A stretch of 17,224 nucleotides of DNA from the NCBI GenBank assembly GCA_023380675.1, contig JAMCRS010000338.1, forward strand, positions 1 through 17,224, given 5' to 3'. The notes beneath the pieces were generated by a model. That model saw nothing but the letters and a program-made list of their open reading frames with translations, had not been told where the DNA came from and ran no database searches. The DNA comes from Chloroflexota bacterium (GTDB lineage: Bacteria; Chloroflexota; Anaerolineae; UBA4142). Each line of letters starts with the position of its first letter. The stretch's first letter is position 1. This document shows, piece after piece, positions 703-17,224 of this stretch. The position numbers and the translations under genes were made by a program.

Positions 703-755
703 GCGACTAGAGCGTCCATGACGCTATGCCCGCGGCGACGTACTCAGAGCTGCAA

Positions 756-1100: not shown

Positions 1101-1233
1101 AGGGGCAGTCCATTGCGTCACACTCAGGTTAACGGGCTCTTTCAAGTTCAGTCCTGACCAAGGGAAGGAAGCGGTCTTAACGCTCAAAGGGGATGCACAT
1201 CTCGCCCCCAACCATTCAGCAGAGGGGAAAAAC

Positions 1234-1953: not shown

Positions 1954-2036
1954 GCACACGCCTGAGCGTTCGCCCCTCGCCGCCGATCAGCTCGTTCACG
2001 GTCGGGCTTGCTTCCTTTCCAATCTCGCGTACGGGT

Positions 2037-4157
2037 TCATCGCTTCACGACCGCCAGCGGCTTGCGTCGTTTGAGGCGGCCAAAGATGGACGCAGCCAAG
2101 AGAACGGCCGCACCGAGCCACGCCAGGAGACTCGTCCAATTGGCCCAATCCAGTCCTTTGAATTGGACCCGCACTTGATGAGTGCCAGGTTCGAGTCGCA
2201 AGCCCGCCAGAACCACGCCTTGCTGGTAAAGCGGAACGTAGTCAGCCTTCCTCCCGTCGAGGGAGAGCGTTAGCAGATCGGGATAGAACAACACGGGAAG
2301 CTGCACCCACCTGGCTTCAGGTGGAACGACGAGCGAGCATGCCGTTTCCGTCCCCTCTTGACGGCACATCGGCTGACTCATGGTCACCGGCAGCACCGTC
2401 AGGTTGGGATCGGCATTCCGAATCACCAGAGTCTGTGCTCGCACCGCCAGGTGGCGCTGGTCGGTCGACCCGGCCAGCGTGTCGGCCGGAACGAACGTCT
2501 GGTCGGCCGCGAACGAAAGCGAGCACTTGTCCGCCTTTTTGTACGGGCTGGCGGGCAGCGGCCCGTTCAGCGAGATCGTCCACTCGAATGGCCCGACGCC
2601 CAACTGCTTTGTGGCGACCACTTGCTTGTTGTAAAGAAACGAGAGCGTAAAGGTCTGCTCGAAGAATCGTTCCGGTACGTCACCTTTGAAATAAATGAGG
2701 GCTCCCGAAGGCGACGCCGGCAAGCAGGTCGGAAGCACATACTCTTCGCTGAGTCTCAACCAGCTGTCCCAATCGATCAGGGGGATGTTCTCGAGATTCG
2801 TGCGCTGAACGGTCCCAAGATAGTTGTCGGGCTTGGTCAGATAATCGCTCACGCCGGTCACGAGATTTGGCGCCGCAACGATATCGGCCGTCTTGAAATC
2901 GGCGTCGCGGGGAGACGGAAGATAGGAGCTGCTCGCCATCCCGATCAGCAGCAAGCCGGCGATCAGGTGACGACCGTCCAACCGTCCCTTGAACAACCAG
3001 GCCAGCGCGAACGCGCCGAGCAGCGCGCCGGTCCACATCACTTGGGTCAAGAGCCGGTACGGGAACTGGATGATGCGGAGCTGCACCGGCAGCTGCGACC
3101 AAAAGTCGACCGGCGACCAGGTCATGAAGAGCGCCAAGGCAAACAGGACAAGCAGCGCCGCGGCCACACGCGCCGTCCAGCGCCGCCGCGTCAATGTGCC
3201 GTCGACCACGAGCGCGTACAAAACGATTCCAAAGCCGACGAGCATCGGCCAGCCGACGGCGGGATTCAGGTTCGGCGTCGTGAGCTGTCCCGGCTGCGGC
3301 TCCGGCGGGAGCGACGTTGGGGAAAGCAGCGCCGGCAGAGGAGAGATCCAGTTGTAGGAAAAAGGAGGCCACAGCAAATCACGCACGCGCAAATAGTCTG
3401 CCGTCACCCCGGGTCCGAGAAAATAGGCGGCGAGAAGGCCGGCGAACACGACCGCCAGGCCGAGCTTGATCAGTCTCAGCAAATTGCGTCGACTCGTCAC
3501 GCCGACGATCAGGAACAGGATGCCGCCAAAGATACCCGCGTAGACGAACGTGATGATGTGCGTGGTGGCCAGCGCGAACCAGGACAAGCTTGCCGCAAGA
3601 AACCAGCCCGGCCCGCGCGAGGCGTAGCAGCGAAAACTGGTGTAAAGCACGAGCGGCACGAGCCCCTGGGCCCACGCTTCCGTAAACGCGCCCCGCGCGT
3701 GGAGATTGACCAGGAAGTACGGCGCGGCCATGTACAGCACGCCGGCCAGGAACGAGGAAACGGCCGAGCCGGTCAACCACAAGGCGAGCCGGTAGACGAA
3801 ATAGCCTGCGAGGGCCAGGAGCACCCAATACGCCAGCTTGTATGCTGCGTACGGATCGGTTGGCGTCAGGTATTTATAGATGAGCCCGGCCGCGGTGTAG
3901 GGAATCTGGGAATAGAATTGAAAGATCGGATAGCGCCAGCCGTCGTACGAATACGGGCCGACGCGCAAAGGGAATTGCCCTTCGTCGATCGCCAGCTTGG
4001 CCTGGACGATGAGCGCCATGTGATCGGGCAGATCGGGCGCACTCGTCATGACGTCGGAGGCCATTGGCGCGAGGAGCGCGAGCGCGATGGCCGCGTACGC
4101 AAGCGCGACGAACAGCTTGCGCCACCGCGGGCCGGCCGGACGTGCAACTCTAAACAT
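2037..4157 (-). CDS. Polytopic membrane protein, PTPS-related / GT-C glycosyltransferase-like
   Basis: 706 residues. The ATG at 4157 is preceded by GGGAG six bases upstream. TM1 is at residues 14-33, followed by an acidic first loop (DLPDH, residues 42-46, then the LPLRVGPYSYDGW-like segment). This is the arrangement of GT-C membrane glycosyltransferases, which use lipid-linked sugar donors, and of the '6-pyruvoyl-tetrahydropterin synthase-related' membrane family, a name that reflects annotation history, not function. About ten further TM segments follow. Residues ~430-660 form a large, mostly beta-type external domain (GVSDYLTKPDNYL, EEYVLPTCLPASPSG). A last TM (TSLLAWLGAAVLLAASIF) and a basic tail (GRLKRRKPLAVVKR) close the protein. 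It is convergent with the adaptor gene and divergent from the sigma gene at 4460. An internally deleted copy of its 5' region lies at 14663-14850. The acceptor and substrate cannot be told from the sequence. Confidence 0.82.
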   Translation of the reverse strand: MFRVARPAGPRWRKLFVALAYAAIALALLAPMASDVMTSAPDLPDHMALIVQAKLAIDEGQFPLRVGPYSYDGWRYPIFQFYSQIPYTAAGLIYKYLTPTDPYAAYKLAYWVLLALAGYFVYRLALWLTGSAVSSFLAGVLYMAAPYFLVNLHARGAFTEAWAQGLVPLVLYTSFRCYASRGPGWFLAASLSWFALATTHIITFVYAGIFGGILFLIVGVTSRRNLLRLIKLGLAVVFAGLLAAYFLGPGVTADYLRVRDLLWPPFSYNWISPLPALLSPTSLPPEPQPGQLTTPNLNPAVGWPMLVGFGIVLYALVVDGTLTRRRWTARVAAALLVLFALALFMTWSPVDFWSQLPVQLRIIQFPYRLLTQVMWTGALLGAFALAWLFKGRLDGRHLIAGLLLIGMASSSYLPSPRDADFKTADIVAAPNLVTGVSDYLTKPDNYLGTVQRTNLENIPLIDWDSWLRLSEEYVLPTCLPASPSGALIYFKGDVPERFFEQTFTLSFLYNKQVVATKQLGVGPFEWTISLNGPLPASPYKKADKCSLSFAADQTFVPADTLAGSTDQRHLAVRAQTLVIRNADPNLTVLPVTMSQPMCRQEGTETACSLVVPPEARWVQLPVLFYPDLLTLSLDGRKADYVPLYQQGVVLAGLRLEPGTHQVRVQFKGLDWANWTSLLAWLGAAVLLAASIFGRLKRRKPLAVVKR

Positions 4158-4199
4158 CAACACTCCCGAGAAAATCGAAAGGGGAAATGGGCTGGGGCA

Positions 4200-4227
4200 A
4201 TTATATCCTGAAAGACCAGGTAGACAA
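4200..4227 (-). promoter_or_regulatory. Sigma-70 type promoter for the membrane protein gene 2037-4157
   Basis: On the minus strand TTGTCT (4222-4227) and a perfect TATAAT (4200-4205) are separated by 16 bases. Transcription would start near 4193, about 36 bases before the ATG, leaving room for the GGGAG ribosome site. The same promoter is conserved in the duplicated copy at 14815-14842. The 302-bp gap 4158-4459 holds this promoter and the divergent one at 4361; I see nothing else in it. Confidence 0.72.
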
Positions 4228-4360
4228 AAGCGTCCAGTCGCCTGATTTGGAGTGTTACCGAAATCGCACCGTCGCCAGCACGCCAATGTTCTGCGGACGA
4301 CGAGCCGAATTCACCCACGTGGCGCCCTGGCAAACCCGGCACATTTTTCGGCGCATTTCA

Positions 4361-4389
4361 TTGACACTGCGGTTGATGTGTGATAGAGT
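4361..4389 (+). promoter_or_regulatory. Sigma-70 type promoter for module A
   Basis: A perfect TTGACA (4361-4366) is followed after 17 bases by TAGAGT (4384-4389), four of six matches to the -10 consensus. The start of transcription would be near 4396. This excludes an ATG at 4187 as the start of the sigma gene and favours 4415 or 4460. It looks like a housekeeping promoter rather than an ECF-type one. Confidence 0.65.
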
Positions 4390-4459
4390 CGGGACAAGTC
4401 GTACAGCTCATGCGATGTCGCGCGCTCAATCCTACTTTCCGGTTTCATCCTATTACTCA

Positions 4460-5335
4460 ATGTCGAGCATCACCAAGGACACTGTACGCGCTCTATGTCA
4501 CGACCGCGTTGCCGCGCTGCCCGCCCCGGAAATTGAAGGTGTCCGGCTCGAACAGCGCGTGGTGCACTTGGTGGAAGAAAACATCAAGCGCGGTCGCTTT
4601 GCGAAATTCGCCGGCGGCGAATCGAACCGCACCTTCTTCAACCTCGCCGAGTACGTGGACCGCGTTGTCTCTTGTGTGGTTAAGGAAGGACCGCGGATTC
4701 AGGCCTTGCAGGACGGAGACGCCACAGAATGGAACCGCCTGGGCAACTTTTTGTTCACTCGCGCCAAGCCCATCGTCGGCAGATTTCGCGGCAGGGGTGG
4801 GGCCTCGGCTGACGCTTTAGATTTCGCACAAAAGGCTTGCCTCGTCGTCTTTGAGAAGCAATACCCATTCGACATCCCATTTGATGCCTGGGCCACTACG
4901 ATCCTCAACCACCTCATCATAGCGGAACTCACGCGCTCTGGCGACGCGCTGGACCGTCCTCAGCCCCCCGAATCGCTCGAGGATCCCCCGGGCAGAAGTC
5001 TAGAGTCCGGCCTTCCATTGAGTGAACTGCTTGCCAATCCGTCTGCTCTGGCGCCGTTCGAGAAGATCGAGAACCAAAGCCTGCTCCTCGGCGCAATCGA
5101 CCAACTGCGCAGTCCGGCACAACAGTTCGTCATCATTCAGTCTTATCTAAACCAAGTGGAGGACGTGGAGATCGCGCGTCTCTTGGGAAAGACTACGCAA
5201 GCGGTGTACAACTTGCGTCAGCGCGCGTTGCTGTGCTTGAGAAAGACCATCGAGGAGCCACCGCGCGACAAAACACGGCGAAAACCCATCCCGGAGTTGC
5301 CGCGCAAGAAACCGAGGCGAAAACCCATTTCATAA
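4460..5335 (+). CDS. Sigma-70 family (ECF-like) RNA polymerase sigma factor, module A
   Basis: 291 residues from ATG 4460; ATG 4415 is possible. Neither start has a good ribosome site, but 4460 aligns with the start chosen for the paralogue at 10054 (S-x-x-x-D-[TS]-x-R shortly after the start). Residues 1-90 are a helical extension not found in minimal ECF factors. Region 2 is at about 100-160 (DALDFAQKACLVVFEK, then FDAWATTILNHLIIAELTR), and region 4 at about 215-265 (QLRSPAQQFVIIQSYLNQ, EIARLLGKTTQAVYNLRQRA, a helix-turn-helix). The C-terminus is a 13-residue tandem repeat of basic residues, PR[DK]K[TP]RRKPI, at about 268-291. It directs RNA polymerase to a set of promoters. An anti-sigma-like gene follows after 130 bp and then the TPR-CHAT gene, which suggests its release is controlled by that pair. 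Confidence 0.85.
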   Translation: MSSITKDTVRALCHDRVAALPAPEIEGVRLEQRVVHLVEENIKRGRFAKFAGGESNRTFFNLAEYVDRVVSCVVKEGPRIQALQDGDATEWNRLGNFLFTRAKPIVGRFRGRGGASADALDFAQKACLVVFEKQYPFDIPFDAWATTILNHLIIAELTRSGDALDRPQPPESLEDPPGRSLESGLPLSELLANPSALAPFEKIENQSLLLGAIDQLRSPAQQFVIIQSYLNQVEDVEIARLLGKTTQAVYNLRQRALLCLRKTIEEPPRDKTRRKPIPELPRKKPRRKPIS

Positions 5336-5346
5336 AGTGGAGGATT

Positions 5347-5382
5347 CGGCCGGCCTCAACGTCAGACGGACGTTTTCGGCCG
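5347..5382 (+). promoter_or_regulatory. Nested inverted repeat between sigma A and its zinc-finger gene
   Basis: AACGTC (5358-5363), a five-base loop and GACGTT (5369-5374) form a perfect stem followed by TT. CGGCCG flanks it on both sides (5347-5352, 5377-5382), so a longer interrupted stem is possible. It sits just after the sigma stop codon and could act as a weak attenuator or processing site in the A operon. Only the symmetry is visible; the role is inferred. Confidence 0.35.
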
Positions 5383-5465
5383 CTTTCATTCAAGGGTCAA
5401 ACAGAAACGGGAGCCGCCCCAGATTGCTCCGCGAACCGGGGCGGTGTCAGTACGGATACACGGCT

Positions 5466-6308
5466 ATGCAAAAAAACAAACAGAATTCCATTCCGAAACG
5501 CAGCCGACGCTACGCCAAACGCAAGCAGGTTTCGCAGGCACGGAATACGGCGAGAGAGTACCTGAGCGAATCCGAGACACTCGCCCCGCGACTCCAGCGC
5601 TTGGCGCAAGCGATTGTGGGCGCCAAGCCCAGGCGCGCGCTCCTGACGCATCAAGACGCTCAAGAGATGCTGGGGTTTTACGTAGAGCGTGAAAACCGCG
5701 GCGAGAACGCTCGTGACCTGTATCACGACGTTTACGACCATCTGATGAGTTGTGATGACTGTAGAGCTTCGTACGAGCTACTGAAAAGCGCGCGGCCGCG
5801 TGGCGACACCACCAGCCTATCCTCACTTACGAAGCCCAAGATCGATCTGCCGTTCCTGGTGCAATCATCACCCGACGCCGCGTGGAGCAAGCAGGTTCGT
5901 TCTCCGATCGGCGGCGGCCCGCTCGGGTTCGTGCTCAAGATCAAGCCGAGCCATCTCGCTAACGTGCTGGCACGGGCACCCCAATTCGCTGGGCGTGGTG
6001 AGGCCTCGGCCGAGCGATCGCTGCTGCTGTTGGATTCGATCGCGCTCGGCAGTCGCGAGGTCCAAGTGGAGTTGTGGTTACATCGTGCCGCAAGTCCGGA
6101 TCATGCTCGCCTTGAAATCTCCATCGTTTCTTCTTCGCCCTTGCCCGAACCGCTTCGCGTCAAACTCAGTTGGAACGAGCATCAATACTCCTCAGCCGTC
6201 GAACAAGGTCGAGGATGGATCGACCCAATCCCCATATCCGGTTTGGAAAACGCTCGCATCAGTGTAGAGGTTGAAGCCGGACAGCCGACTCCGTCTACCG
6301 AGAGGTAA
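5466..6308 (+). CDS. Zinc-finger anti-sigma-like protein with beta-rich C-terminal domain, module A
   Basis: 280 residues from ATG 5466; a GTG at 5337 is an alternative start with no better ribosome site. A basic N-terminus (KRSRRYAKRKQ) leads to LAPRLQRLAQAIVG and then a zf-HC2/ZAS-type segment, with H92-x3-C96-x2-C99 in DHLMSCDDCRASYELL. The Cys that usually precedes this triad is Ala65 here, so the zinc site may be incomplete or use His62. The motif PKIDLPFL follows. Residues ~125-280 look like a beta-sandwich (VQVELWLHRA, ARLEISIVSSSPLPEP, PLRVKLSWNE, ARISVEVEAG). No membrane segment is seen. The stop is one base before the ATG of the TPR-CHAT gene, so the two are translationally coupled. 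The N-terminal half aligns with the protein at 11221. Role by analogy: inhibitor of sigma A. Confidence 0.72.
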   Translation: MQKNKQNSIPKRSRRYAKRKQVSQARNTAREYLSESETLAPRLQRLAQAIVGAKPRRALLTHQDAQEMLGFYVERENRGENARDLYHDVYDHLMSCDDCRASYELLKSARPRGDTTSLSSLTKPKIDLPFLVQSSPDAAWSKQVRSPIGGGPLGFVLKIKPSHLANVLARAPQFAGRGEASAERSLLLLDSIALGSREVQVELWLHRAASPDHARLEISIVSSSPLPEPLRVKLSWNEHQYSSAVEQGRGWIDPIPISGLENARISVEVEAGQPTPSTER

Positions 6309-6309
6309 C

Positions 6310-9300
6310 ATGGCAACGGTCGATGACGCTCTCAAGACCGCACGACAACTTGCGCGTCAGATCTCGACCGGCTTGTCAGATACGCCTTCGCCAGTCCCCG
6401 CTATCGAAATCACGCACCTCGTCGAACAAATTGCAGCACCCGAACAGCTTGCGGAGATCCCGACTGCCCTCCAGCGCGACGCGCTCGCATGCCTCGATCA
6501 AGTGCCGCGCGAGGCATTTGGACTGGCGCGTGTGGCGCACGAGCTTGCGTGTACGGCCGCCGACGACCGTGCGCAGGCCGAAACCGCGCTGACACTTGCG
6601 ATTGTCCTGAATCGACTTGGGGAATTCCGCGACGCACTGGCGCAATCACTTTCCGCGGCTGGCGAATTTGAAAAACGGGGCGACATGCCACAAGCCGCGC
6701 GAGGTTATTTCGAAGCGGCTTGGGCGAATTCTTGCCTGGGCCATCTCAAAGCTACCCTGGAAAATGCCGCACGTGCGCGAGAGAAGGATTTATCGCCGGT
6801 CTCCCAGGCACGCTGTGATTGGATTGGGGCGCGCGCTTTGCGTGACCAGGGAAATTACCCCGAAGCCGAAGAACTCTTCGAAAGATCGCGTGCCGTATTC
6901 GAGTCCGCGGGCATGCCTCTCGACGCAGCGCGCTGCACGCGCGAACTGGCTCACGTGTATGTGCGCGGTGAGCGACCAGGAGCCGCCGTGCTCCTGCAAT
7001 CCGCAAGGCAAATCTTCGAGTCCGCCCAATGCGCATTCGATGTCACTTTTTGTGATTTTCTCTCTGGCGTAGACCGAATTGAGAGAGCTTCTTATTCTGA
7101 CGCAGAGAGTAGTATTTCTCAAGCTCGGGACAGTTTTCTTCGCTTGGGCGCAGAGTTTTTCGTCGCCTGGTGTAACGCGCATCTCGGAGTTATCTATCTA
7201 TTTCAGAATCTATTCGAGGAATCGCTCGAAGCATCCCACCTCGCGCGCGACTATTTTCTCACCCGTGGCGTGGTAGTAGAAGTCTCTGCTTGTGACATCA
7301 ATATCGGGCTCACGTGCGATGCACTCAACCGCTATGACCAGGCCCTGACCTTTTATCAAGAGGCAGCTGATTTGTCATTGGAGGAAGGACGCGAGGTTCG
7401 GGCAGGGCGGATTCACGAGAACATGGGCTCCGTTTACGCGAAACAGGGCTTGTACGCGAAAGCACTAGAGCTTCAGGAGCGGGCTCTTGAAATTTACTCA
7501 AGGAAAGCACTCGAAAGCCTCGTGGGCAATTGCCTCGTCAGACTCGCCATCATTTGTCGGCAATTGGGACAGTACGGGGAAGCCATGGAACATCTGCGCC
7601 GCGCACACGCAATATTCTCCGAAAGAGATCTCGCGATTCAGCTTGCGGAATGCGAGTTTACCATGGCAGACGTTCACTTCGCACTTTACGAAACGAGCGA
7701 AGCGAATGTTCAGTTACATCAAGCGCGAAAAATATATGCCGAAAATGGATTAGAATCTCTAGTGGCTGTATGCGATCGCCTCCTCGCGTGTCTCGCCAAC
7801 CAACAAAGTGAACGCATACGCGCTCTATCTCTCGTCTCAGACAGCCGCGCGACGTTTCAAAAGCAGCATCAAATCGTCGATGTTGCTCTCTGCGACCTAA
7901 CGGAAGGTGAACTACGTCTTCAGTGGAATGAGCAACTCGAAGCCGAGCAGGCGTTTGTTCGCGCCCTAGCAGTCTTGTCGCCGGGCTTTCCAGATCAGGC
8001 ATGGCGCGTCGAGGCTGGGTTAGGAGACTGCGCAAAGGTTGCTTGCAAACCCTTAGCTGCGATCGAGCATTATCTAAACGCCATGCGCATCATTGCTCAA
8101 TCGCGTTCAATCCTCGTTACTGAACAGTTAAGCAACGATTACTTCTCCTCGCGCCAGTCCGTTTACGATAGGGCCCTGAAGATCGCGATGGAACTCGACG
8201 CGCCCGAAATCGCGCTAGAGATCGTTGAAGCCAGCAAGGCGCGGGTATTTCTATCCTTGTTGCAGAATCGCCGGTGGCATATTTCCAATGCACGGGACGA
8301 TCCGACCGTTGCTCAATTGCTCGCCCGTGAAAAGGAATTGCGTTACCAACTCGATGCTTTGCGAACCCATGCCACAGTAACTCCGCCCAAGGACAAGGAA
8401 GACGCTCTGCGGGGTGACACGCAAGCGCATATCTCGATAGCGGAATTGCAGGAGCTCAACGCGCTGAGCCACGCATACGAGTCGGTTGTGGCGCGCTTGC
8501 GGCTCTATTCGAACGGCCTAACCGGCGTTTCTGCGCCCTCTCTATTCGCGCTCGATCAATTTCGCGAAGTGGCGTCCGCGCGGCTCGGCACCGACTGGGC
8601 CGCGTTGGATTACTACTTGTCTGGCGATGACCTCACTTGCATTGTCGTGCAACCCACTCGCGTTTCCGTTTCGTCGAGAACACTCTCCAAGTACGATCGG
8701 GGAATCCTTGACAAATGTGTGTCGCAAGAACATGATTTGCGCGAAATCGTGTACAACGGTACGCTGCGGGGCGAACCGACTCCTTCGCCTGGCTTGCGTT
8801 ACTTGAGTCACTTGTATCATTTACTCGTGCCTGAGTGGCTTGACGCCGAGACATTGCTGATCGCGCCGCATGGCGCGTTGCACGCATTGCCGTTTCACGC
8901 GTTGAGAAAGGGCGACGATTATTTGATTCAGCATCACACGCTCATCTACACGCCGAGTCTGCAGGCTCTGCAATACCTCCTCGTCGAAGAACAAGCAGGT
9001 TCGGCGAAGTCGTTGGCAGTGGGGCTGTCCGAATTTGGAGACCAAATGCGACCGCTCCCTTATGCGAGCACGGAGATAGAACAATTCCAGGCAGTGTTGG
9101 GCGGGCAAGCCCAGATCTTGTGGGATGATCGCGCCACGCGCAAGGAGTTACTGGCGCTCGATCAAGCCGGCGCGTTGCAGGATTACGCGCTGATCCACTT
9201 TGCCACACACGCTATCCTTGACCGCACCGCTCCGCATCGCTCGCGCGTGCTCTTGCGCGATGAGCCGTTGACGATACTTGACATCATGGACCTGAGACTG

Positions 9301-9594
9301 AATGCGCGATTGGTGACGCTCTCGGCGTGCGAGACCGCGCTCGGTCAGGGTGGACGCGGCGACGAACTCGTCGGTCTCGCGCGCGCCTTTTTCCATGCCG
9401 GCGCACGAGCGCTTGTCGCTTCTCTATGGCAAGTACAAGACCGTTCGATCGCGGAATTGATGGGGCGTTTTTACCGGCGTCTGGCGGATGGGGAGAATAT
9501 TGCCGTGGCGCTTCGCCACGCGCAGGTCGAGATGATTCAGGCGAACTACTCGCCCTTTCAATGGGCGTCACTCGCTCTAATGGGTCGACCGTAG
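6310..9594 (+). CDS. TPR-CHAT protein (caspase-like cysteine peptidase), module A
   Basis: 1094 residues. The ATG at 6310 has GAGAGG upstream and follows the previous stop after one base. Residues ~85-600 are about 13 helical repeats with a period of almost exactly 40 residues. They are TPR-like (for example ALRDQGNYPEAEELFERSR and GSVYAKQGLYAKALELQERA), and a Cys recurs at the same place in most of them. A linker at ~600-780 contains EIVEASKARVFLSLLQNRRW, a segment typical of TPR-CHAT proteins. Residues ~790-1094 are the CHAT domain: LLIAPHGALHALPFHAL, then YALIHFATHA with catalytic His967, then LVTLSACETALGQGGRGDE with catalytic Cys1007. The usual C-terminal ALVASLWQVQD...A segment and FQWASLALMG complete it. 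Both catalytic residues are present. CHAT proteases are activated through their TPR part and cleave partner proteins. The neighbouring zinc-finger protein is the obvious candidate substrate, by inference. Confidence 0.9.
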   Translation: MATVDDALKTARQLARQISTGLSDTPSPVPAIEITHLVEQIAAPEQLAEIPTALQRDALACLDQVPREAFGLARVAHELACTAADDRAQAETALTLAIVLNRLGEFRDALAQSLSAAGEFEKRGDMPQAARGYFEAAWANSCLGHLKATLENAARAREKDLSPVSQARCDWIGARALRDQGNYPEAEELFERSRAVFESAGMPLDAARCTRELAHVYVRGERPGAAVLLQSARQIFESAQCAFDVTFCDFLSGVDRIERASYSDAESSISQARDSFLRLGAEFFVAWCNAHLGVIYLFQNLFEESLEASHLARDYFLTRGVVVEVSACDINIGLTCDALNRYDQALTFYQEAADLSLEEGREVRAGRIHENMGSVYAKQGLYAKALELQERALEIYSRKALESLVGNCLVRLAIICRQLGQYGEAMEHLRRAHAIFSERDLAIQLAECEFTMADVHFALYETSEANVQLHQARKIYAENGLESLVAVCDRLLACLANQQSERIRALSLVSDSRATFQKQHQIVDVALCDLTEGELRLQWNEQLEAEQAFVRALAVLSPGFPDQAWRVEAGLGDCAKVACKPLAAIEHYLNAMRIIAQSRSILVTEQLSNDYFSSRQSVYDRALKIAMELDAPEIALEIVEASKARVFLSLLQNRRWHISNARDDPTVAQLLAREKELRYQLDALRTHATVTPPKDKEDALRGDTQAHISIAELQELNALSHAYESVVARLRLYSNGLTGVSAPSLFALDQFREVASARLGTDWAALDYYLSGDDLTCIVVQPTRVSVSSRTLSKYDRGILDKCVSQEHDLREIVYNGTLRGEPTPSPGLRYLSHLYHLLVPEWLDAETLLIAPHGALHALPFHALRKGDDYLIQHHTLIYTPSLQALQYLLVEEQAGSAKSLAVGLSEFGDQMRPLPYASTEIEQFQAVLGGQAQILWDDRATRKELLALDQAGALQDYALIHFATHAILDRTAPHRSRVLLRDEPLTILDIMDLRLNARLVTLSACETALGQGGRGDELVGLARAFFHAGARALVASLWQVQDRSIAELMGRFYRRLADGENIAVALRHAQVEMIQANYSPFQWASLALMGRP

Positions 9595-9642
9595 AAAAGG
9601 GGCACGCTTGTATCAGAAGAACCGACCCGCGTCAACATAAAA

Positions 9643-9673
9643 GAGACGAGAAGCACTGGGAGCTTCTCGTCTC
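9643..9673 (-). terminator. Rho-independent terminator of the secreted peptide gene
   Basis: A perfect 12-bp stem (GAGACGAGAAGC with GCTTCTCGTCTC) and a 7-base loop. On the minus strand it is followed by TTTTATGTT, so it ends transcripts of the peptide gene at 9689-9883. It lacks a T-tract on the plus strand but lies 49 bp after the CHAT stop and may also slow read-through from module A towards module B. Confidence 0.8.
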
Positions 9674-9688
9674 GGACGAGCCTGGCTC

Positions 9689-9883
9689 TTAGCAGCCAGC
9701 GGTGCACGGGCTGTCAGGGTGCACCAGAATGGGCGTGGGCGTTGGGGTCGGCTGGTCGTCCAGGATGTACCCAGCCGTGGGATGCGTCGGGTGCGCCGAG
9801 GCTGCAAGAATCGGTGCGGCCGAGGTCGCCACGCCCGCCAGCAGGAACACGGCCAGCAAGAACGCCTTTGTGAACTTGAACAT
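9689..9883 (-). CDS. Small secreted Pro/Thr-rich peptide
   Basis: 64 residues. A near-perfect ribosome site, AAGGAGGT, lies five bases before the ATG, and a strong terminator follows, so this short frame is very likely a real gene. Residues 1-30 form a signal peptide: basic MFKFTK, a hydrophobic core (AFLLAVFLLAGVAT), and a likely cleavage after AAPILAASA. The mature part, about 34 residues, begins with HPTHPTAGYILDD, then PTPTPTPI, and ends SPCTAGC with two Cys. No family is recognised. It is convergent to the TPR-CHAT gene and divergent from sigma B, so it sits exactly between the two modules. It could be an exported signal, a cell-surface linker peptide or a target gene of one of the sigma factors; the sequence does not decide. 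Confidence 0.75.
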   Translation of the reverse strand: MFKFTKAFLLAVFLLAGVATSAAPILAASAHPTHPTAGYILDDQPTPTPTPILVHPDSPCTAGC

Positions 9884-9953
9884 CTCGTACCTCCTTGAAG
9901 TTGGATTACTTACACCCTCAAGGATGGCGAGACATCGTATTTCCTAACAGCCT

Positions 9954-9983
9954 CGCAAGTTATGTTTGCAAGTTATGCTTGCG
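9954..9983. promoter_or_regulatory. Operator-like repeat in the divergent peptide / sigma B promoter region
   Basis: GCAAGTTATG occurs twice (9955-9964 and 9968-9977), 13 bp apart, and the block is bounded by CGCAAG and CTTGCG in inverted orientation. It abuts and overlaps the proposed -35 of the sigma B promoter and lies 71 bp upstream of the peptide ATG, a position suited to a regulator acting on both genes. Binding by any protein is inference. Confidence 0.45.
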
Positions 9984-10007
9984 TTTCCGCATCATTCCTC
10001 GTAGAAT
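9979..10007 (+). promoter_or_regulatory. Probable promoter of module B (sigma B operon)
   Basis: TTGCGT (9979-9984), a 17-base spacer and TAGAAT (10002-10007, five of six matches). Transcription would start near 10014, about 40 bases before the GTG start at 10054. An ATG at 10012 would lie at or before the transcript start, which argues against it. Confidence 0.5.
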
Positions 10008-10053
10008 ATGGATGCGGGGCGCGCTGCAGCCCAAACGACCGCCGGAGGGATGT

Positions 10054-10866
10054 GTGGGGGATCCGTCGCACGATAGTTGTCGCCGCATCGTTCACGCCGA
10101 ATTGGCGAGGCGGGGATGGCAGCTCGCAGACCCCGAGGCCTTGGCAGACGAGGTCTGCCGGGAGATGGTCGAGAAGCAAGTGCCCGCGGCTGACCTGGAA
10201 ACAAAGGCAAAGCGCGCGACCCTGCGCCATTACTGCGTCATCCTCCATACCGCCTGCAGCGCGCACGGCACAGACCGCCAGCGCCGGGGCTTCGAGGAAC
10301 TTTGGTACTACCTGTATCCCATAGCGCACTACAAGTTGCGCGGCGATCCGTCATTCGCTGAGGATCTGACGCAGCAGGCCTTGGAAAAAACCTGGAAGAA
10401 CCTGGCGAATTGCCGGGACGCCGGCAGTTTTCTTAACTACGCCACACTCATTTTGATCAACGAGATCCGGCAGTACTTTCGAGACAAGTTCAAAAATGGC
10501 GGGGGTTCCGACGAACCGGCCTGGTTTGAGAAGGAATTGGACGAGACGGATCTTTCGGACACCAACTCAGAGGGCGACGTCAAGCCGTTCGACGTGATCG
10601 AGGATGAATCGAGTGGCGAGGCGCTGGACAAAGTGATCGTGGATGAAGATCTGAAGGAGTTGCTCGCGGTTCTGGAGGAATGCGTCGAGAATCGATTGTA
10701 CCGGGAGGTGCTAATCGATCTGTTCTTCGAAGACAAGGGCTTTGCGGAAATCGCCTCGTCGCGCCGAATGACCGTGGCCCATGTTTACGTATGCAAGAAT
10801 CGCGGGCTCAAAGAACTGAGCCAGTGCGAAGCCTTCATTCGGTTCGTCGAGAGGAAGAGACGTTGA
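10054..10866 (+). CDS. Sigma-70 family RNA polymerase sigma factor, module B
   Basis: 270 residues from GTG 10054, chosen because GGAGG lies five bases upstream. Residues 1-75 are a helical extension like that of sigma A. Region 2 is at about 85-140 (YYLYPIAHYKLRGD, FAEDLTQQALEKTWKNL, then SFLNYATLILINEIRQYFRDK). An acidic linker (about 153-200: ELDETDLSDTNSEGD, VIEDESSGEALDKVIVDEDL) replaces the usual short one. Region 4 is at about 205-260 (LEECVENRLYREVLIDLFFE, GFAEIASSRRMTVAHVYVCK, a helix-turn-helix). Its TGA stop overlaps the TTG start of the next gene, so it is translationally coupled to a zinc-finger anti-sigma-like protein. It is similar in layout to the sigma factor at 4460 but clearly diverged. 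It presumably directs its own regulon under control of the two downstream inhibitors. Confidence 0.85.
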   Translation: MGDPSHDSCRRIVHAELARRGWQLADPEALADEVCREMVEKQVPAADLETKAKRATLRHYCVILHTACSAHGTDRQRRGFEELWYYLYPIAHYKLRGDPSFAEDLTQQALEKTWKNLANCRDAGSFLNYATLILINEIRQYFRDKFKNGGGSDEPAWFEKELDETDLSDTNSEGDVKPFDVIEDESSGEALDKVIVDEDLKELLAVLEECVENRLYREVLIDLFFEDKGFAEIASSRRMTVAHVYVCKNRGLKELSQCEAFIRFVERKRR

Positions 10867-11228
10867 CGCGTTCAACCCAGGCTGAGAATCTGCAGCACAT
10901 TCGCCGCGCGGTGCGTTCGCCGCGCGTGGCCGCGCTGCCGCTGCCCGTGCGCCTCTTGGCATACGCGGCGGCAAATCCGCGCGCCGGCGGCCCGGCATGC
11001 GTGCGCTGCCACCGCGAGCTCCCTGCTTACGTAGACGCCGAGCTCGACGGCCGTTTGCCGCCCCTCGCCGAATCCTTCAGCCGCCAGCATTTACTTGTAT
11101 GCGCGAGTTGCTCGCAAGACTATACGGATTTGCTGGACGCCGCCATTCTGTCGTTCGAGTCTCGTCTGGCGAAACCGCCTCAGATGCCCAGGCCGGACCT
11201 GGGATTCCTCGAGGACTCTAGTGGCTGA
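10863..11228 (+). CDS. Small zinc-finger anti-sigma-like protein (zf-HC2/ZAS), module B, first
   Basis: 121 residues. The TTG at 10863 is taken as the start because it overlaps the sigma stop (TTGA) and has GAGGAAGAG just upstream; a GTG at 10911 is the alternative. The finger is complete: C46-x2-C49-H50 (ACVRCHRELPAYVDAEL), then H76-x3-C80-x2-C83 (QHLLVCASCSQDYTDLLD), as in ZAS proteins that bind cognate sigma factors. The protein ends soon after the motif PRPDLGFL, so it is a bare inhibitor domain with no sensor and no membrane segment. It overlaps the next gene by 8 bp. Likely role: cytoplasmic anti-sigma factor for sigma B; how its release is triggered is not visible. Confidence 0.78.
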   Translation: MTRSTQAENLQHIRRAVRSPRVAALPLPVRLLAYAAANPRAGGPACVRCHRELPAYVDAELDGRLPPLAESFSRQHLLVCASCSQDYTDLLDAAILSFESRLAKPPQMPRPDLGFLEDSSG

Positions 11229-12045
11229 CATCGAAAACGAGCGCCAAGCTAGACTGCGTCGCGCGGTCCGGGAACACGGGAGCGAGCTGACTCCCGGGCT
11301 CGAACGGCTCGCGCGCGCAGTCGCCGGCGACACCGAGGACGGGATCTCACATGAGGAATGCGTATCCGTCCTGCCCGAGCTCGTGGACGCGGAGATCGCC
11401 GGCGAGTCCATCGCTCGGAAATACGGGCGGTTCAAGCACCACCTGGACATTTGTCCGGCGTGCGCTGAGCAGTATGTCGCGCTGCTTGACTTGGCTCTCG
11501 CGGAAGAAGCCGGGACCCTTCCCGAGCCAGAGTCGATTCCGGGCCCGAACCTCGACTTTTTGCGCGCCCAGGCGCCCGCAGTTCCAGTTCTCCAGCCCGG
11601 CCCGGAGATGACGCTCCCGGAATTCGTCAAGCAGAAGGCGCTGGAAATTCTGAATGCCACCGCGCCGGCCCAAGTGCCAGACCTGTTGAGCGTCGTAGAC
11701 GCCTTCTTTAGACAGGTGAGCCAATTGAGCGGCGACCTGGCTTTCCAGCGCGGCGCCGGGCAGGCGTTGGGCCTGGGATCGGGCGAGTTGACCGCGCCGG
11801 TCGCCACGCTCGCGGTGACTTTTACCGCCGTACGCAGGCTTGTCGCGACACTCTCCCCCGAGCAGGTGGACGCGCTGGCCGCGGAAAACACCCTTGCCGG
11901 GCGCGCAGAGGAACAAGCGCTCCTCGCCGCGCGGGAGCTAAACGTCAATGCGGCGACGGCTAAGACCATCGCCGCGGAATTTGGCGCACTCCTCGCGGCG
12001 GAACCCCAAACTTTCCGCGGCTTGATCGAGCGAGTCAAGCCCTAG
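11221..12045 (+). CDS. Zinc-finger anti-sigma-like protein with helical C-terminal domain, module B, second
   Basis: 274 residues from GTG 11221, with GAGGA about five bases upstream and an 8-bp overlap with the preceding gene. LTPGLERLARAVAG leads to a full finger: C47 (HEECVSVLPELVDAEIAGE), then H74-x3-C78-x2-C81 (HHLDICPACAEQYVALLD). PGPNLDFL follows. Residues ~125-274 are predicted all-helical (EFVKQKALEILNA, VVDAFFRQVSQLSGDLAF, EEQALLAARELNVNAATAKT) with no obvious relatives that I recognise and no TM segment. The N-terminal 100 residues align with the module A protein at 5466 over the whole finger region. It could be a second anti-sigma, an anti-anti-sigma that competes for the factor, or an adaptor to the protease encoded next. 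Confidence 0.75.
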   Translation: MADIENERQARLRRAVREHGSELTPGLERLARAVAGDTEDGISHEECVSVLPELVDAEIAGESIARKYGRFKHHLDICPACAEQYVALLDLALAEEAGTLPEPESIPGPNLDFLRAQAPAVPVLQPGPEMTLPEFVKQKALEILNATAPAQVPDLLSVVDAFFRQVSQLSGDLAFQRGAGQALGLGSGELTAPVATLAVTFTAVRRLVATLSPEQVDALAAENTLAGRAEEQALLAARELNVNAATAKTIAAEFGALLAAEPQTFRGLIERVKP

Positions 12046-12064
12046 CCCGCGAGACGAGCACCGG

Positions 12065-13975
12065 ATGCCTGCGGACAGCCTGGTCGCTGACCCTTCGGCC
12101 AAACGCCTGAACGTGCTCGCGCTCCCGACTCGCACCACCTTGCTATTCTCGCTCATCGTCCTCGCCATCGGGCTTCCGGTCGCGTCCTCTCTCGAGAGCG
12201 GCTCGGGAATCGTCGGTCCATTTTTCGTTCTCGGGATGATCCTACTGACGCTCCGCGCCTTTCTCCGCCATCCAATCCTTCAACTCCGTCATTGCCTGGA
12301 GATCCAAACGAGTCAGCGCTACCCGTCCCTATTGCGGCGCTGGAATGAATTGGCAAAGTCCACTGCAGGAATCAATCCGCCGCGTCTGGTCCTGGAACAG
12401 CTTGGCTCGGCGGAACCCCATACCTTCGGCACATTCACACGCAAGTACATGGCGATGCCGGACCGGCTTGCGCCGGGGCTCGAGCGCGCACTGGAATCCA
12501 CACGCGACGGAGAACGGGCCAGCGGCGAAGCCGTGCTGCTGCACGAATTGGCGCACTTTGCTCATCACGACGTCTGGATGACATTCTTTGCCGAGAGTCT
12601 GCTCAAGGTGACGATCGCGTTCGTGACGCTCGATTTCTTCGTCAATGCGTTGTCCCCCTGGCTGTACAACGGCATCATTTCGTTCTTCGATTTCAGCAAG
12701 CTCTTCGCCCCGGAACTCGTTCAACTCGTCGCGGCCTCGGACCCCCAAATGGCACAAGTCCTGGTCAATCCCCCCCGCGTCCCGCCGGTGGTCTGGATGC
12801 GCTACGAGATATTCATCTTCACCGCCCATTGGCCGCTCGTTCTGGGCAGCATCGTCCTGCTCGTCCTTTACTGGCGCGCGCTGTTACGCACACGTGAGCT
12901 GTACGCCGACGCGCGTGTCGCCGAGTGGCAGGAAAGCGCACAGGGTTTATGGGGTGGGGTGTCGCTGGTGCAGATTCTGCTGATGACGGCGTCAAGCGGG
13001 GAAAGCCTGGGGGAAAAACTGGCGGCGTGGCGGGAGCGTCTGCTTTCGATCAGGCCGCCGGGTTGGAGCGCGCTAAGGCGGTGGCTGGACGTGCATCCGC
13101 GCCTGGAGGCTCGACGGCAGGCCCTGAGCGAACCCTTCAAGATCTACGGAGGCGACTGGGAGATCGCGTTGAGCGCGGGCGGAACGGTCGTCTTGGTCAA
13201 TTTGAGTCTCGGCTCGCTTTTTCTCTCGCGATTCACCCGCGGACCGAACAGCGCACCGCCATTTCTGATCGGGTTCGTCGTTCTATCTCTTTCGCTCTTG
13301 CCATTTCTGTGCCAGTACCCCGAAAGGCGCCGCGAGTTCACGCGCCGGGTCACCCGTACGGTCTTGGGCTTGACACTGATCAAGCTCATCCCCCAGCTCA
13401 CCCTCGCGCTGGTAATCACGATCGGCATTCTGGGCGATCCCGCCTTGATCGATCAAGCCGCCTACGCGCTTGTCCCGGGCGCAGGTGCAAATACTCCGCC
13501 CACGAGTGTTCCCGTCGAATTCGTTCTCGAGCAATTCGTCGTTCGCCCGGCTCTGCTGTTCGCTTGCGTCATGCCCGTCGTTCTGATGCTCTTCCTTTCG
13601 CTGGATGCAAGAATCAAACGGCGTATTCTGAGATGGTACAGCTCGCGTTTCGTCGTTCAGAATCCGGCGCGTGCGTTTATTACAGTTACCCTGCTGCTCG
13701 CGGCGGCCCTTGGCTTGATGCTTCTCCCCCTGCTGGACTGGCTGACAAATCCGACCGCACATGACCTGTTCGATCCGCTCACGCTCTTCGGGATGGCGCT
13801 GGGAACCCTCGGATCGATTGCGGCGGCGATTTGGTTTTCCGTCTTGGATCGCCGCCACGCCGATCGCTGTCCGCAATGCGGTGCGTCATCCAAGGGAGAC
13901 TATTGGCTCGGAAAAACGTGTGGCGCATGCGGCCAGACTTTTCATCCGCGGCTTTTGGCTCCCGGCACCGATTGA
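12065..13975 (+). CDS. Polytopic M48-type zinc metalloprotease with C-terminal zinc ribbon, module B
   Basis: 636 residues, starting 19 bp after the previous stop. Two N-terminal TM segments (TLLFSLIVLAIGLPVASSL; GIVGPFFVLGMILLTL) precede the zinc site H160-E161-L-A-H164 in AVLLHELAHFAHHD. The third ligand is Glu278, with Asp282, in RELYADARVAEW, as in M48 (HtpX/Ste24) peptidases. Between these lie TM segments LKVTIAFVTLDFFVNAL and PLVLGSIVLLVLYW. About six more TM segments follow up to residue ~595, many more than in HtpX. The C-terminus carries C602-x2-C605-x13-C619-x2-C622, a zinc ribbon. Being the last gene of a sigma/ZAS operon, it is a good candidate for the protease that responds to an envelope signal and destroys the anti-sigma proteins, as M56 BlaR1-type proteins do for repressors. 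That link is inference. The 3' end overlaps a convergent gene. Confidence 0.82.
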   Translation: MPADSLVADPSAKRLNVLALPTRTTLLFSLIVLAIGLPVASSLESGSGIVGPFFVLGMILLTLRAFLRHPILQLRHCLEIQTSQRYPSLLRRWNELAKSTAGINPPRLVLEQLGSAEPHTFGTFTRKYMAMPDRLAPGLERALESTRDGERASGEAVLLHELAHFAHHDVWMTFFAESLLKVTIAFVTLDFFVNALSPWLYNGIISFFDFSKLFAPELVQLVAASDPQMAQVLVNPPRVPPVVWMRYEIFIFTAHWPLVLGSIVLLVLYWRALLRTRELYADARVAEWQESAQGLWGGVSLVQILLMTASSGESLGEKLAAWRERLLSIRPPGWSALRRWLDVHPRLEARRQALSEPFKIYGGDWEIALSAGGTVVLVNLSLGSLFLSRFTRGPNSAPPFLIGFVVLSLSLLPFLCQYPERRREFTRRVTRTVLGLTLIKLIPQLTLALVITIGILGDPALIDQAAYALVPGAGANTPPTSVPVEFVLEQFVVRPALLFACVMPVVLMLFLSLDARIKRRILRWYSSRFVVQNPARAFITVTLLLAAALGLMLLPLLDWLTNPTAHDLFDPLTLFGMALGTLGSIAAAIWFSVLDRRHADRCPQCGASSKGDYWLGKTCGACGQTFHPRLLAPGTD

Positions 13976-14568
13976 ACCCCGTCCCGCCCCGAAATCTCCT
14001 TGAACAAAAGCACCGCAAGATGACCGACGAACGCCATGCCTCCGGTCACTGCCAGAAAGGAGAGCAGACAGACCGGCGTCACCAGGACCATCGAATCGCG
14101 AAGGGGCAGCGACGATAGGCGTTCGTATGTCTGGTAGCGCGCCATCGTGACGATCAAGCAGATCGGAAAGCCGAGCCATGCGGCCCCCAGCGCGATCGCG
14201 CTCGCATCCTGATAGATCAGGATCAAAAGCAGGCTGACGAGCATCCCCAGCAGCGTTCCAAACACCACGAGCGTGACCACCGCGTTCAAGTTGCGAAGAA
14301 GCGGACTCGGCGAGTCCCACAAATTCCACTGCCACTGTAGCCAGCCCTGCGCCGCGATGTGCGGCACCGCCAAAAGTCCGAGCCCGCGCCAGCGGCGTAA
14401 GAGGCTGGAAAATCGTAACGACAGCCCCAGTAGAGAGATCACGAAAAGGAGCAAAAGGCCCCAAGTTGCGCAGCCGTCGCGGACGTCGTCTGGCGCCAGC
14501 CAAAAGTAAAGCAGCACGACGGCGAGGCTAATCAAGAGGATCCTATTAACGTAGCGTTCTATCGGCAT
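13942..14568 (-). CDS. Hypothetical five-pass membrane protein
   Basis: 208 residues. The ATG at 14568 is preferred over a GTG two codons upstream because AGAGG lies five bases before it. Five hydrophobic segments are visible: ILLISLAVVLLYFWLA, WGLLLLFVISLLGLSL, VVTLVVFGTLLGMLVSLLLI, AIALGAAWLGFPICLIVTM and LVTPVCLLSFLAVTGGMAF. No family is recognised. Its last 34 bp overlap the 3' end of the M48 gene in convergent orientation, so the two transcripts are antisense there. Its only good upstream promoter is the one kept in the decayed duplicate at 14815-14842, giving a leader of about 240 bases with two hairpins. Confidence 0.65.
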   Translation of the reverse strand: MPIERYVNRILLISLAVVLLYFWLAPDDVRDGCATWGLLLLFVISLLGLSLRFSSLLRRWRGLGLLAVPHIAAQGWLQWQWNLWDSPSPLLRNLNAVVTLVVFGTLLGMLVSLLLILIYQDASAIALGAAWLGFPICLIVTMARYQTYERLSSLPLRDSMVLVTPVCLLSFLAVTGGMAFVGHLAVLLFKEISGRDGVQSVPGAKSRG

Positions 14569-14615
14569 TGCCACCTCTTGACGGACCGATAATCACATTT
14601 ACCCCACATTCAATC

Positions 14616-14649
14616 GGAGACTATGCGAGTCTCCCCGCCGGAGGCGGGG
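14616..14649. repeat. Two abutting perfect hairpins upstream of the five-pass membrane protein
   Basis: GGAGACT-ATGCG-AGTCTCC (14616-14634) and CCCCGCC-GGA-GGCGGGG (14633-14649) share two bases, so both stems cannot form completely at once. There is no T-tract on either strand, so neither looks like an ordinary terminator. They resemble REP-type palindromes. Confidence 0.6.
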
Positions 14650-14662
14650 CTTACCCCCTTAC

Positions 14663-14807
14663 TAACCAAAAGGTGAGCCAGTAGACGAAATATCCTGCGA
14701 GGGCCAGGATCACCCAATACGCCAGCTTGTATGCTGCGTACGGATCGGTTGGCGTCAGGTATTTATAGATGCGCCCGGCCCCGCGGTGCAGGGAACCTGG
14801 GAATAGA
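14663..14807 (-). pseudogene. Remnant of a duplicated PTPS-related membrane protein gene
   Basis: This stretch matches 3774-3916 of the 2037-4157 gene in the same orientation, including 61 identical bases (14711-14771 = 3822-3882). It has several substitutions and a 2-bp insertion near 14780 that shifts the frame. At 14807/14808 the copy jumps to the equivalent of 4193, having lost 276 bp that include the start codon and ribosome site. Similarity then continues through the promoter to about 14850. The rest of the gene is missing. The 563-bp gap 14569-15131 contains this remnant, its promoter, the hairpins at 14616-14649, and from 14850 on only the leader of the MFS gene. Confidence 0.85.
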
Positions 14808-14814
14808 TGGGGCA

Positions 14815-14842
14815 ATTATATCCTGAAAGACCGGGTAGACAA
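14815..14842 (-). promoter_or_regulatory. Duplicated sigma-70 promoter facing the five-pass membrane protein gene
   Basis: TTGTCT (14837-14842) and TATAAT (14815-14820) on the minus strand, 16 bases apart, identical in both hexamers and spacing to the promoter at 4200-4227. The gene it once served is gone. The next intact minus-strand gene downstream is 13942-14568, so it may now drive that gene. Confidence 0.65.
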
Positions 14843-15028
14843 AACGTCCAGCCGCCGGCGTCGTCGCGCGCGCCGCCCTTAAGAAAAACGCCGGTCGGGC
14901 ACGCATTCGGCCCTCATCCAAACGTGGTAGACCGCCTGCCGCGAAACAGGGAGACGATTGCAGGCGCCGCCGTCCATTCGTGCACTCGCCGAATCCGCAT
15001 TTCGCACGATGCCGCCGAACCTGGATTC

Positions 15029-15037
15029 TGGTATGCT
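15029..15037 (+). promoter_or_regulatory. Possible extended -10 promoter for the MFS gene
   Basis: TGGTATGCT reads as an extended -10 (TG-n-TATGCT). No convincing -35 is seen at the normal distance. A start near 15044 would leave a leader of about 88 bases before the GTG at 15132. Confidence 0.3.
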
Positions 15038-15131
15038 TCTCCCGACCGTTCGTGCAGAGCAGTCAAGCGGCGCTCTCGAGCGGTGTGGTACGGCAAACGG
15101 ATACCAAATCGACATTTAGATTGGAGCTCAT

Positions 15132-16409: not shown

Positions 16410-16457
16410 TTACTGATCCTGGGTCACTTTTTTGCCCAATATCGACTGAACGTCAAA

Positions 16458-16484
16458 AGCCAGGCCATCCAGGCCTGGCTTTTT
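16458..16484. terminator. Rho-independent terminator after the MFS gene
   Basis: AGCCAGGCC, a five-base loop (ATCCA) and GGCCTGGCT form a perfect 9-bp stem followed by TTTT. AAA precedes the stem, so it could serve the minus strand as well. It lies 48 bp after the MFS stop. Confidence 0.9.
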
Positions 16485-16643
16485 AAATCCTCGCTCTCTT
16501 CCGCGCAGATCAGAATATCAAGGCGCTATAGGGCGCCCTTGCGGACCGATGGCCTTGCCTCAGAGCGCAAATCTCTTCGTCTGATGGCTGAGACGCCCTT
16601 TTGAGCGGGTTTCATGTCAATCGCGCTCACGCGCGATCGGAGC

Positions 16644-17177: not shown

Positions 17178-17218
17178 TATGCTTCAGTTTCTATCGCCAA
17201 CTCGCAGAACAATATCGG
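17153..17218. repeat. Possible mobile-element end or palindromic insert bounded by CCGATAT / ATATCGG
   Basis: CCGATAT (17153-17159) and ATATCGG (17212-17218) are perfect inverted repeats 52 bp apart, located exactly where the aminotransferase similarity stops. It may be a small palindromic insert or the outer end of an insertion sequence. No transposase is visible in the six bases left. Confidence 0.35.
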
Positions 17219-17224
17219 CGTTTT

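Follow-up and report, generated by a model that had tools for sequence, protein, structure and literature searches.

We describe two gene modules that lie in tandem in a 17,224-nucleotide stretch of DNA from a Chloroflexota bacterium (Anaerolineae, UBA4142; assembly GCA_023380675.1, contig JAMCRS010000338.1, positions 1 to 17,224 of the forward strand), the whole of which is referred to here as the window and which appears to make up the larger share of an 18,396-base contig. Each module consists of a gene for a sigma factor, one or two genes for ZAS-type zinc-finger proteins and a gene for a protease, in the same order and orientation, and all of these genes are open on the plus strand. An earlier, sequence-only reading of the window had proposed this arrangement, and it is borne out by open reading frames (ORFs), by Pfam and NCBIfam matches and motifs, and by a layout that is conserved in relatives. 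That reading needed amendment in several respects; in particular, ZAS proteins number two in module B (zfB1 and zfB2) and one in module A (zfA), and a small minus-strand gene between the modules, pep, had been overlooked. We suggest that the modules are probably two linked proteolytic sigma switches, in which a sigma factor held by an inhibitor is freed by a protease. The features are collected in Table 1.

Table 1. Features of the two-module region (positions in the window)
Feature	Position	Strand	Basis or remark
Promoter-like site, sigma70-type: TTGACA, 17 bases, TAGAGT	4361..4389	+	upstream of sigma A; read by eye
Sigma A: ECF-like sigma factor, 291 amino acids, N-terminal extension of ~100 amino acids	4460..5335	+	Pfam, NCBIfam
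zfA: presumed anti-sigma adaptor, 280 amino acids	5466..6308	+	motif, alignment, predicted structure
TPR-CHAT cysteine protease, 1094 amino acids; HFATH at residue 963, SACE at 1005	6310..9594	+	Pfam, motifs, tree
Perfect 12-bp inverted repeat directly 3' of TPR-CHAT; terminator-like stem, no clear T-run (z -2.34)	9643..9673	+
pep: secreted-type peptide, 64 amino acids, Cys at end; convergent to TPR-CHAT, divergent to sigma B	9689..9883	-
Short direct repeat GCAAGTTATG, pep/sigma B intergenic; possible operator	9955..9978	not assigned
Sigma B: ECF sigma factor; start at 10012 (ATG) or 10054 (GTG)	10012..10866	+	Pfam, NCBIfam, tree
zfB1: small ZAS protein, ~118 amino acids, approximate start	about 10872..11228	+
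zfB2: ZAS protein, 274 amino acids, C-terminal part helical-looking	11221..12045	+
Polytopic membrane metallopeptidase, M48 family, 636 amino acids; HELAH at 160, ELYAD at 278; C-terminal Cys pairs	12065..13975	+

The conservation of the layout was followed from sigma A. In what follows, order and class are those of the genome G002 (Candidatus Aquidulcis), and handles beginning with G and L stand for genomes and loci. A protein search with sigma A returned 13 proteins, sigma A itself counted, and the five named relatives come from Chloroflexota assemblies, three of them Anaerolineae or Anaerolineales. Of the 20 order genomes, 10 have relatives at E 1e-20, and so do, at E 1e-15, at least 37 of 396 genomes drawn from the class; in a 400-genome draw from the phylum they were seen at E 1e-20 only in G002 and G117, among the best six candidates per genome; a scan of a viral collection returned no sigma A relative. 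Counts from such wide draws are lower bounds, with the best 6 (sigma A), 15 (pep) or 3 (M48) candidates per genome scored.

The surroundings were read for 43 of the 44 sigma A sites in the class, that is, all but the site in G477. At 39 of the 43, sigma A is followed on its own strand by a gene that matches the ZAS profile, the zfA-type (C-domain) profile or both, the weakest matches being those of L176 and L178 (C-domain, 6e-4 and 8e-4); an unmatched ORF of similar size holds this position in L167, L170 and L177, and L180 has none. A TPR-CHAT gene follows the partner in 24 of the 43 loci, in 22 of them behind a matched partner (the gene of L161 is a broken fragment, and only its N-terminal stretch is seen in L177 and L181, where the contig ends), and five loci reach the contig end before the CHAT position. 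Eight of the 24 CHAT loci stop inside the CHAT gene or within about 1.3 kb after it. Ten of the 16 that can be read further run on in the same direction into sigma B and ZAS (L032, L034, L118, L156, L158, L161, L165, L168, L169 and L172; L156 is counted though its sigma B leaves the contig and its ZAS gene is out of view), and six do not (L033, L041, L043, L157, L163 and L167). Departures within the layout include a foreign 850-residue ORF on the opposite strand between the modules of L032, and L036, which has CHAT (frame-broken), sigma B, zfB1, zfB2 and M48 with no sigma A or zfA adjoining. Directly upstream of the locus in L118, and on the opposite strand, lies a gene for a CHAT-NB-ARC-TPR protein (8106-10846).

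The end proteases of the two modules differ, as had been read from the sequence, and the catalytic motifs are present in both. A simple hydropathy scan counts 10 hydrophobic segments in the M48 protein and none in the other six module proteins, CHAT included, in line with the proposal of one cytosolic and one membrane-bound protease. The Pfam matches of TPR-CHAT are strong (CHAT 1.4e-65, 222 bits; TPR_12 1.4e-24) and that of M48 lies above its cut-off (8.1e-7, 29.5 bits vs 20.3), with HELAH and ELYAD in place. The idea of one design with swappable proteases is likewise upheld by the loci at hand, as module B is followed on the same strand by M48 in five of them (the window, L032, L034, L036 and L145) and by a distant, TPR-less second CHAT, at the tail of the layout, in five others (L158, L161, L168, L169 and L172). 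The first CHAT appears to be a single family. In a quick tree the sigma-linked CHATs together with those of L049, L050, L051, L052 and L055 form one group of 25 rows (Shimodaira-Hasegawa-like approximate likelihood ratio test, SH-aLRT, 98), separate from nine of ten other CHATs, with L056 a long-branch outsider; this tree omits three of the five CHATs at the tail and one further CHAT, their matched stretch being too short. The catalytic His and Cys are intact in all 25 aligned family members.

One could argue that these are merely co-located genes of a lineage with no shared mechanism, and the incomplete co-occurrence would agree with that: there are sigma A genes without CHAT, a CHAT without sigma (L050) and M48 genes without sigma. 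Yet sigma A, partner, CHAT, sigma B and ZAS keep the same order and strand also outside the order to which G002 belongs, as in G435. Moreover, in three genomes with 33 CHAT matches (E 1e-10) and 146 sigma region-4 matches (E 1e-4; the sigma B of L036 is absent among them), just 3 of the CHAT matches have a region-4 match at a distance of 6 kb or less, and all three belong to these modules. We therefore find mere co-location very improbable. The layout is found again in many diverged genomes, which is more than chance, and its retention in relatives that exchange some of the parts gives it the look of an evolved signaling circuit, not of genes that are neighbors by accident.

The M48 protease is less closely tied to sigma factors. 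Its relatives occur in at least 15 of the 396 class genomes, and neighborhoods were read for 14 of the 15 class members (G444 was left out). In 7 of the 14, M48 adjoins sigma and/or ZAS (G002, G410, G405, G557, G434, where ZAS alone is present, G616, where sigma-ZAS comes behind M48, and G443, frame-broken), and the closest four relatives, at E of 1e-153 or less, all stand beside sigma-ZAS-ZAS. Two relatives have a context that resembles conflict systems: one (L152, 1028-4044) is the immediate neighbor of a TIR protein, and the other (L153, 7043-10561) that of a protein with an EAD7 match below threshold and a TRADD-N match at the cut-off. Because of these contexts, and because half of the relatives read are without sigma or ZAS neighbors, we conclude that the M48 family does not serve sigma control exclusively and has a certain flavor of conflict systems.

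The ZAS motif is H-x3-C-x2-C plus an upstream fourth ligand. All three ZAS proteins of the window have H-x3-C-x2-C with a His or Cys upstream, and the motif is intact in 19 of 19 aligned partner rows, an alignment that excluded the motif-less partners of L034, L039, L043, L051 and L055. Of these cropped ZAS rows, 12 match Pfam zf-HC2 with E values no higher than 0.1 (best 4.3e-4) and 10 match NCBIfam RsrA at E 0.1 or less (best 5.1e-5). Compared with the PDB, the ZAS profile finds the anti-sigma factor RsiW best (0.0027), followed by DdvA (0.1) and ChrR (0.56); a match to 8rot_B (E 4.9) was taken as chance. The ZAS crop is predicted with a mean pLDDT (predicted local distance difference test) of 85.4 and a pTM (predicted template modeling score) of 0.62.

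The zfA protein has more than a ZAS half. In the predicted layout the N-terminal ZAS half (about 5583-5805) is followed by a low-confidence linker at residues 114-129 and by a C-terminal beta domain from residue ~137. A resemblance of this C-domain to MATH/TRAF is a lead only. In L051 and L055 a BTAD-STAND-TPR (SARP/STAND) regulator replaces sigma, and there the partner beside CHAT is without the ZAS half and retains the C-domain. As the ZAS half is missing and the C-domain kept beside CHAT in these two loci, where another regulator stands in for sigma, the comparison suggests that zfA may be a two-part adaptor, with the ZAS half for sigma and the C-domain for CHAT. Alternatively, zfA could be a scaffold that brings CHAT to sigma or to RNA polymerase and inhibits nothing, in which case CHAT would cleave another target and sigma would simply be co-regulated; we hold this to be quite unlikely.

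A further alternative is that the ZAS proteins are themselves the switch, zfA and zfB releasing sigma when oxidized or depleted of metal, like ChrR and RsrA, and CHAT and M48 being downstream effectors (e.g., cell-death proteases) that share the locus. The intact motif of the 19 aligned partners agrees with such a switch, soluble ZAS anti-sigma factors that answer oxidative stress are a known class (PMC8999054), and the two M48 relatives in conflict-type contexts could be taken the same way. On the other hand, partners devoid of zinc ligands are still found next to sigma A and CHAT (L034 and L043, and, judged by no ZAS match, L168, L169 and L172), and CHAT keeps its C-domain neighbor in loci that have neither sigma nor ZAS, two features for which a pure redox switch would have no need. 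We regard a redox or metal switch as unlikely, and favor the reading in which the protease frees sigma.

The sequence-only reading also called the modules paralogous, a claim that stands directly for the ZAS proteins and indirectly for the sigma factors. Its alignment of the zinc-finger proteins encoded from 5466 and 11221 is reproduced by BLASTP (zfA vs zfB2, 2e-6) and by profile comparison (98.6%), confined to the ZAS half, and zfB1 and zfB2 match at 6e-13; by these alignments the zinc-finger proteins of modules A and B are paralogous. Both sigma factors have about 100 residues before region 2. Pfam finds region 2 in sigma B (5.4e-9) and regions 2 and 4 below threshold in sigma A (7.2e-4 and 6e-4), and against the NCBIfam sigma70-ECF cut-off of 42.9 bits sigma B scores 44.9 and sigma A 40.8, just below. 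The gene for sigma B may start with an ATG at 10012 or with a GTG at 10054, the position from which the sequence-only reading counted module B. The two sigma factors of the window do not match directly by BLASTP (E 0.27), whereas their family profiles align over most of their length (5.3e-15). In an unrooted ECF tree, 16 sigma A and 5 sigma B rows stand apart from 28 other ECFs with support of 96/93, and with core columns only, one fragment dropped, 15 sigma A and 5 sigma B rows stay together with 98/91 (also unrooted). The 28 outside ECFs are genes of G002, G405 and G410 from the best 30 loci of the 146 region-4 matches, and L097 (short) and L090 (ambiguous) were left out. Since the sigma factors are joined by profiles and tree and not by BLASTP, the paralogy of the two modules seems likely but old.

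Upstream of sigma A the site in Table 1 is of sigma70 type, and among 12 upstream regions inspected by eye a TTGACA-like box with a TA-rich box 17 bases further on precedes sigma A in L033, L040, L041, L042 and L044. No ECF-type autoregulated promoter was seen by eye before sigma A, where no motif search was run. Expression of sigma A may perhaps be housekeeping, and the promoter-like site fits control after translation.

The pep gene has a good ribosome-binding site, and its product has a hydrophobic, signal-peptide-like start (by hydropathy only), a PTPTPT stretch, a C-terminal C-T-A-G-C and no Pfam match. In 583 kb of fetched loci together with the window, a set rich in CHAT loci, a strict scan recovered seven ORFs of this kind, each of them immediately downstream of a family CHAT gene and on the opposite strand; the control (base-shuffled 200-base blocks) gave 0.8 per pass. 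An eighth copy is found in L036, with an unclear ribosome site. Among the 28 pairs of these eight copies the third codon position is the most different in 27 and the second the least in 25, as in a protein gene. Run over the 20 whole genomes of the order, the eight-copy profile returned its own seven copies (the window excepted), five weak matches inside other frames (E 9e-4 to 0.0098) and one new copy; this copy (L112, about 9190-9380, plus strand) has an internal stop and no CHAT within the 19 kb read, and besides it the 20 genomes held no strong copy away from CHAT. The 396 class genomes add at least two more copies. That of L118 (G435) sits inside a full sigma A-zfA-CHAT-pep-sigma B-zfB locus. 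That of L117 (G577) is convergent to a STAND-TPR protein (frames broken), with a sigma A/ZAS pair divergent upstream and no CHAT seen, a layout shared by L164 in a local profile search; in both, the tail extends one or two Gly past the last Cys. A protein database yields 30 relatives at an E of 0.001 or below, at least five of which are sites that were counted above; all 30 have the terminal Cys and another Cys among their last ten residues. Two secreted-type ORFs of 72-73 amino acids with Cys-Gly-rich tails, near the CHAT-less sigma A loci L170 (4535, plus strand) and L178 (607, minus strand), are at most possible kin of pep.

RRNPP receptors are TPR proteins, and as the common neighbor of pep is also a TPR protein, recalling those systems, it is conceivable, if doubtful, that the TPR domain senses exported pep, that CHAT then cuts zfA, and that sigma A and subsequently sigma B, through a ZAS/M48 or ZAS/CHAT stage, are switched on. 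A variant within the same tentative reading is that the TPR domain senses a failure of pep to leave the cell or to return. The pep gene is present at 9 of the 26 family CHAT genes that can be read for about 300 bases or more downstream and missing at the other 17, which counts against peptide sensing.

Direct repeats bracket the whole two-module region (3775-3894 vs 14664-14783, 94% over 120 nt; 4193-4229 vs 14808-14844, 97% over 37 nt), which gives the impression of an inserted or relocated cluster, and the far copy resembles a truncated duplicate of the beginning of the gene at 2037-4286 on the minus strand. Elsewhere in the window a 147-nt tandem duplication (97%; 786-932 and 950-1096) lies between two HlyD-type genes, either inside the second ORF or ahead of it.

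Taken together, gene content, motifs, conserved order, a single CHAT family and the absence of the ZAS half where another regulator replaces sigma are observed. Inferred are the binding of sigma, the cleavage, the signal and the order in which A and B act, as well as any sensing of the peptide. In module A, the N-terminal ZAS half of zfA would hold sigma A, and its C-terminal beta domain would be presented to TPR-CHAT. The TPR part would sense its signal, and CHAT would then free sigma A by cutting zfA, the flexible linker being the likeliest site. In module B, zfB1 and/or zfB2 would hold sigma B until the protease encoded downstream, here the membrane-bound M48, frees it. The interpretation given by the sequence-only reading is thus partly supported, being right in outline, with a mechanism that remains conjectural.

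Several observations weigh against these proteolytic switches. The sequence-only reading had named as a refutation that homologues of the proteases be mostly without these sigma/ZAS genes, and by that measure the outcome is mixed: the sigma-linked CHATs are one family, but 14 of the 43 sigma A loci have another gene or nothing in place of TPR-CHAT after the partner, and 7 of the 14 M48 relatives are without sigma or ZAS neighbors (among them L147, which is cut 46 bases upstream). In four of the five loci with a second CHAT after module B, this gene lies on the opposite, convergent strand. The ZAS proteins of the window stay below the cut-off of Pfam zf-HC2 (13.0-15.1 bits vs 22.2, E 0.025-0.12), and Foldseek found no fold match for the ZAS-crop model (best E 2.5). 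Finally, the partners in L034, L039 and L043 have no H-x3-C-x2-C ligands despite the presence of sigma, and 11 further partners match the C-domain and not ZAS, so that zinc is not essential and the pairing of ZAS and sigma is not strict.

A search by title and start of abstract, in which subscription literature was thinly covered, found no publication on a CRISPR-free sigma/ZAS/TPR-CHAT cassette or on pep. As far as searched, print offers no account of the cassette of three parts, of the module in tandem with it, of the exchangeable ends or of the peptide. The proximity of CHAT to an ECF sigma factor is not itself new, since CHAT-domain proteins have been described in the gene neighborhood of ECF54, where proteolysis was proposed (PMC8999054); ECF54 differs from the modules in being described, in the parts of that source at hand, without an anti-sigma factor. 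A comparable group, to which sigma A or B might belong, is ECF271, with a model member from Chloroflexi, a soluble ZAS protein and a mechanism given as unknown (PMC8999054). The conflict systems built on caspase and TRADD-N couple caspase-superfamily proteases to ECF sigma factors (PMC8195603). The modules resemble these in the pairing of such a protease with an ECF sigma gene, and two M48 relatives lie beside the EAD7/TRADD-N-like protein and the TIR protein; in the window modules Pfam finds no TRADD-N or EAD domain at E 1, and PADLOC gives zero matches at 1e-4 for the seven proteins.

In RRNPP systems the gene for a secreted propeptide adjoins that of its intracellular receptor (PMC10075063, PMC9765709), much as pep adjoins TPR-CHAT in nine loci and STAND-TPR in L117 and L164. 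Unlike in RRNPP, the TPR part is fused to a CHAT protease (Pfam of the window protein gives TPR and CHAT and no helix-turn-helix, whereas RRNPP receptors have a helix-turn-helix or Rap-type effector domain), pep is convergent and Cys-tailed, the host is a member of the Chloroflexota, and sensing is hypothetical. Peptide signaling through a caspase-like receptor has a small but real chance of being right. If true, it would be cell-to-cell signaling with a caspase-like protease as receptor, outside the Firmicutes. The Cys-tailed pep family is in any case a concrete candidate signal, and with synthetic peptides the trigger of such CHAT proteases becomes testable.

Type III CRISPR systems offer mechanistic precedents. 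In CalpL/CalpT/CalpS a protease cleaves an anti-sigma factor and frees an ECF sigma factor, a chain of protease, anti-sigma and sigma like that proposed for the window; CalpL differs in being a Lon-SAVED protease activated by cyclic tetra-adenylate (cA4), and the parts of that report at hand name no CHAT, TPR or ZAS (PMC11417357). The closest known system is Craspase, or type III-E CASP (Csx29/Csx30/CASP-sigma). The N-terminal domain of Csx30 binds CASP-sigma and its C-terminal domain the CHAT part of Csx29, and in the authors' model cleavage of Csx30 relieves the inhibition of sigma (PMC10028731). In a PDB sequence search with CHAT, Csx29 was the sole CHAT chain at E 0.001 or less (1.8e-5), and a PDB profile search returned no chain of Csx30 at E 1. 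We do not assign the window modules to Craspase, as CHAT scores 72 bits against the cut-off of 300 of the NCBIfam Csx29 model (five relatives, 37-71 bits) and as Pfam of the window genes and a repeat scan of these 17 kb give no Cas gene or CRISPR-like repeat array. The inhibitor also differs, being a ZAS protein with a beta domain, and the trigger must be other than a CRISPR guide. What the two share is a TPR-CHAT protease, a presumed inhibitor in two parts and an ECF sigma factor. Craspase provides the precedent that a TPR-CHAT protease can free sigma when a CRISPR guide meets its target; a chromosomal, guide-free version, if true, would use the same logic as ordinary signaling with exchangeable adaptor halves and protease, and, if gated by peptide, would be the CRISPR-free counterpart of the Craspase design.

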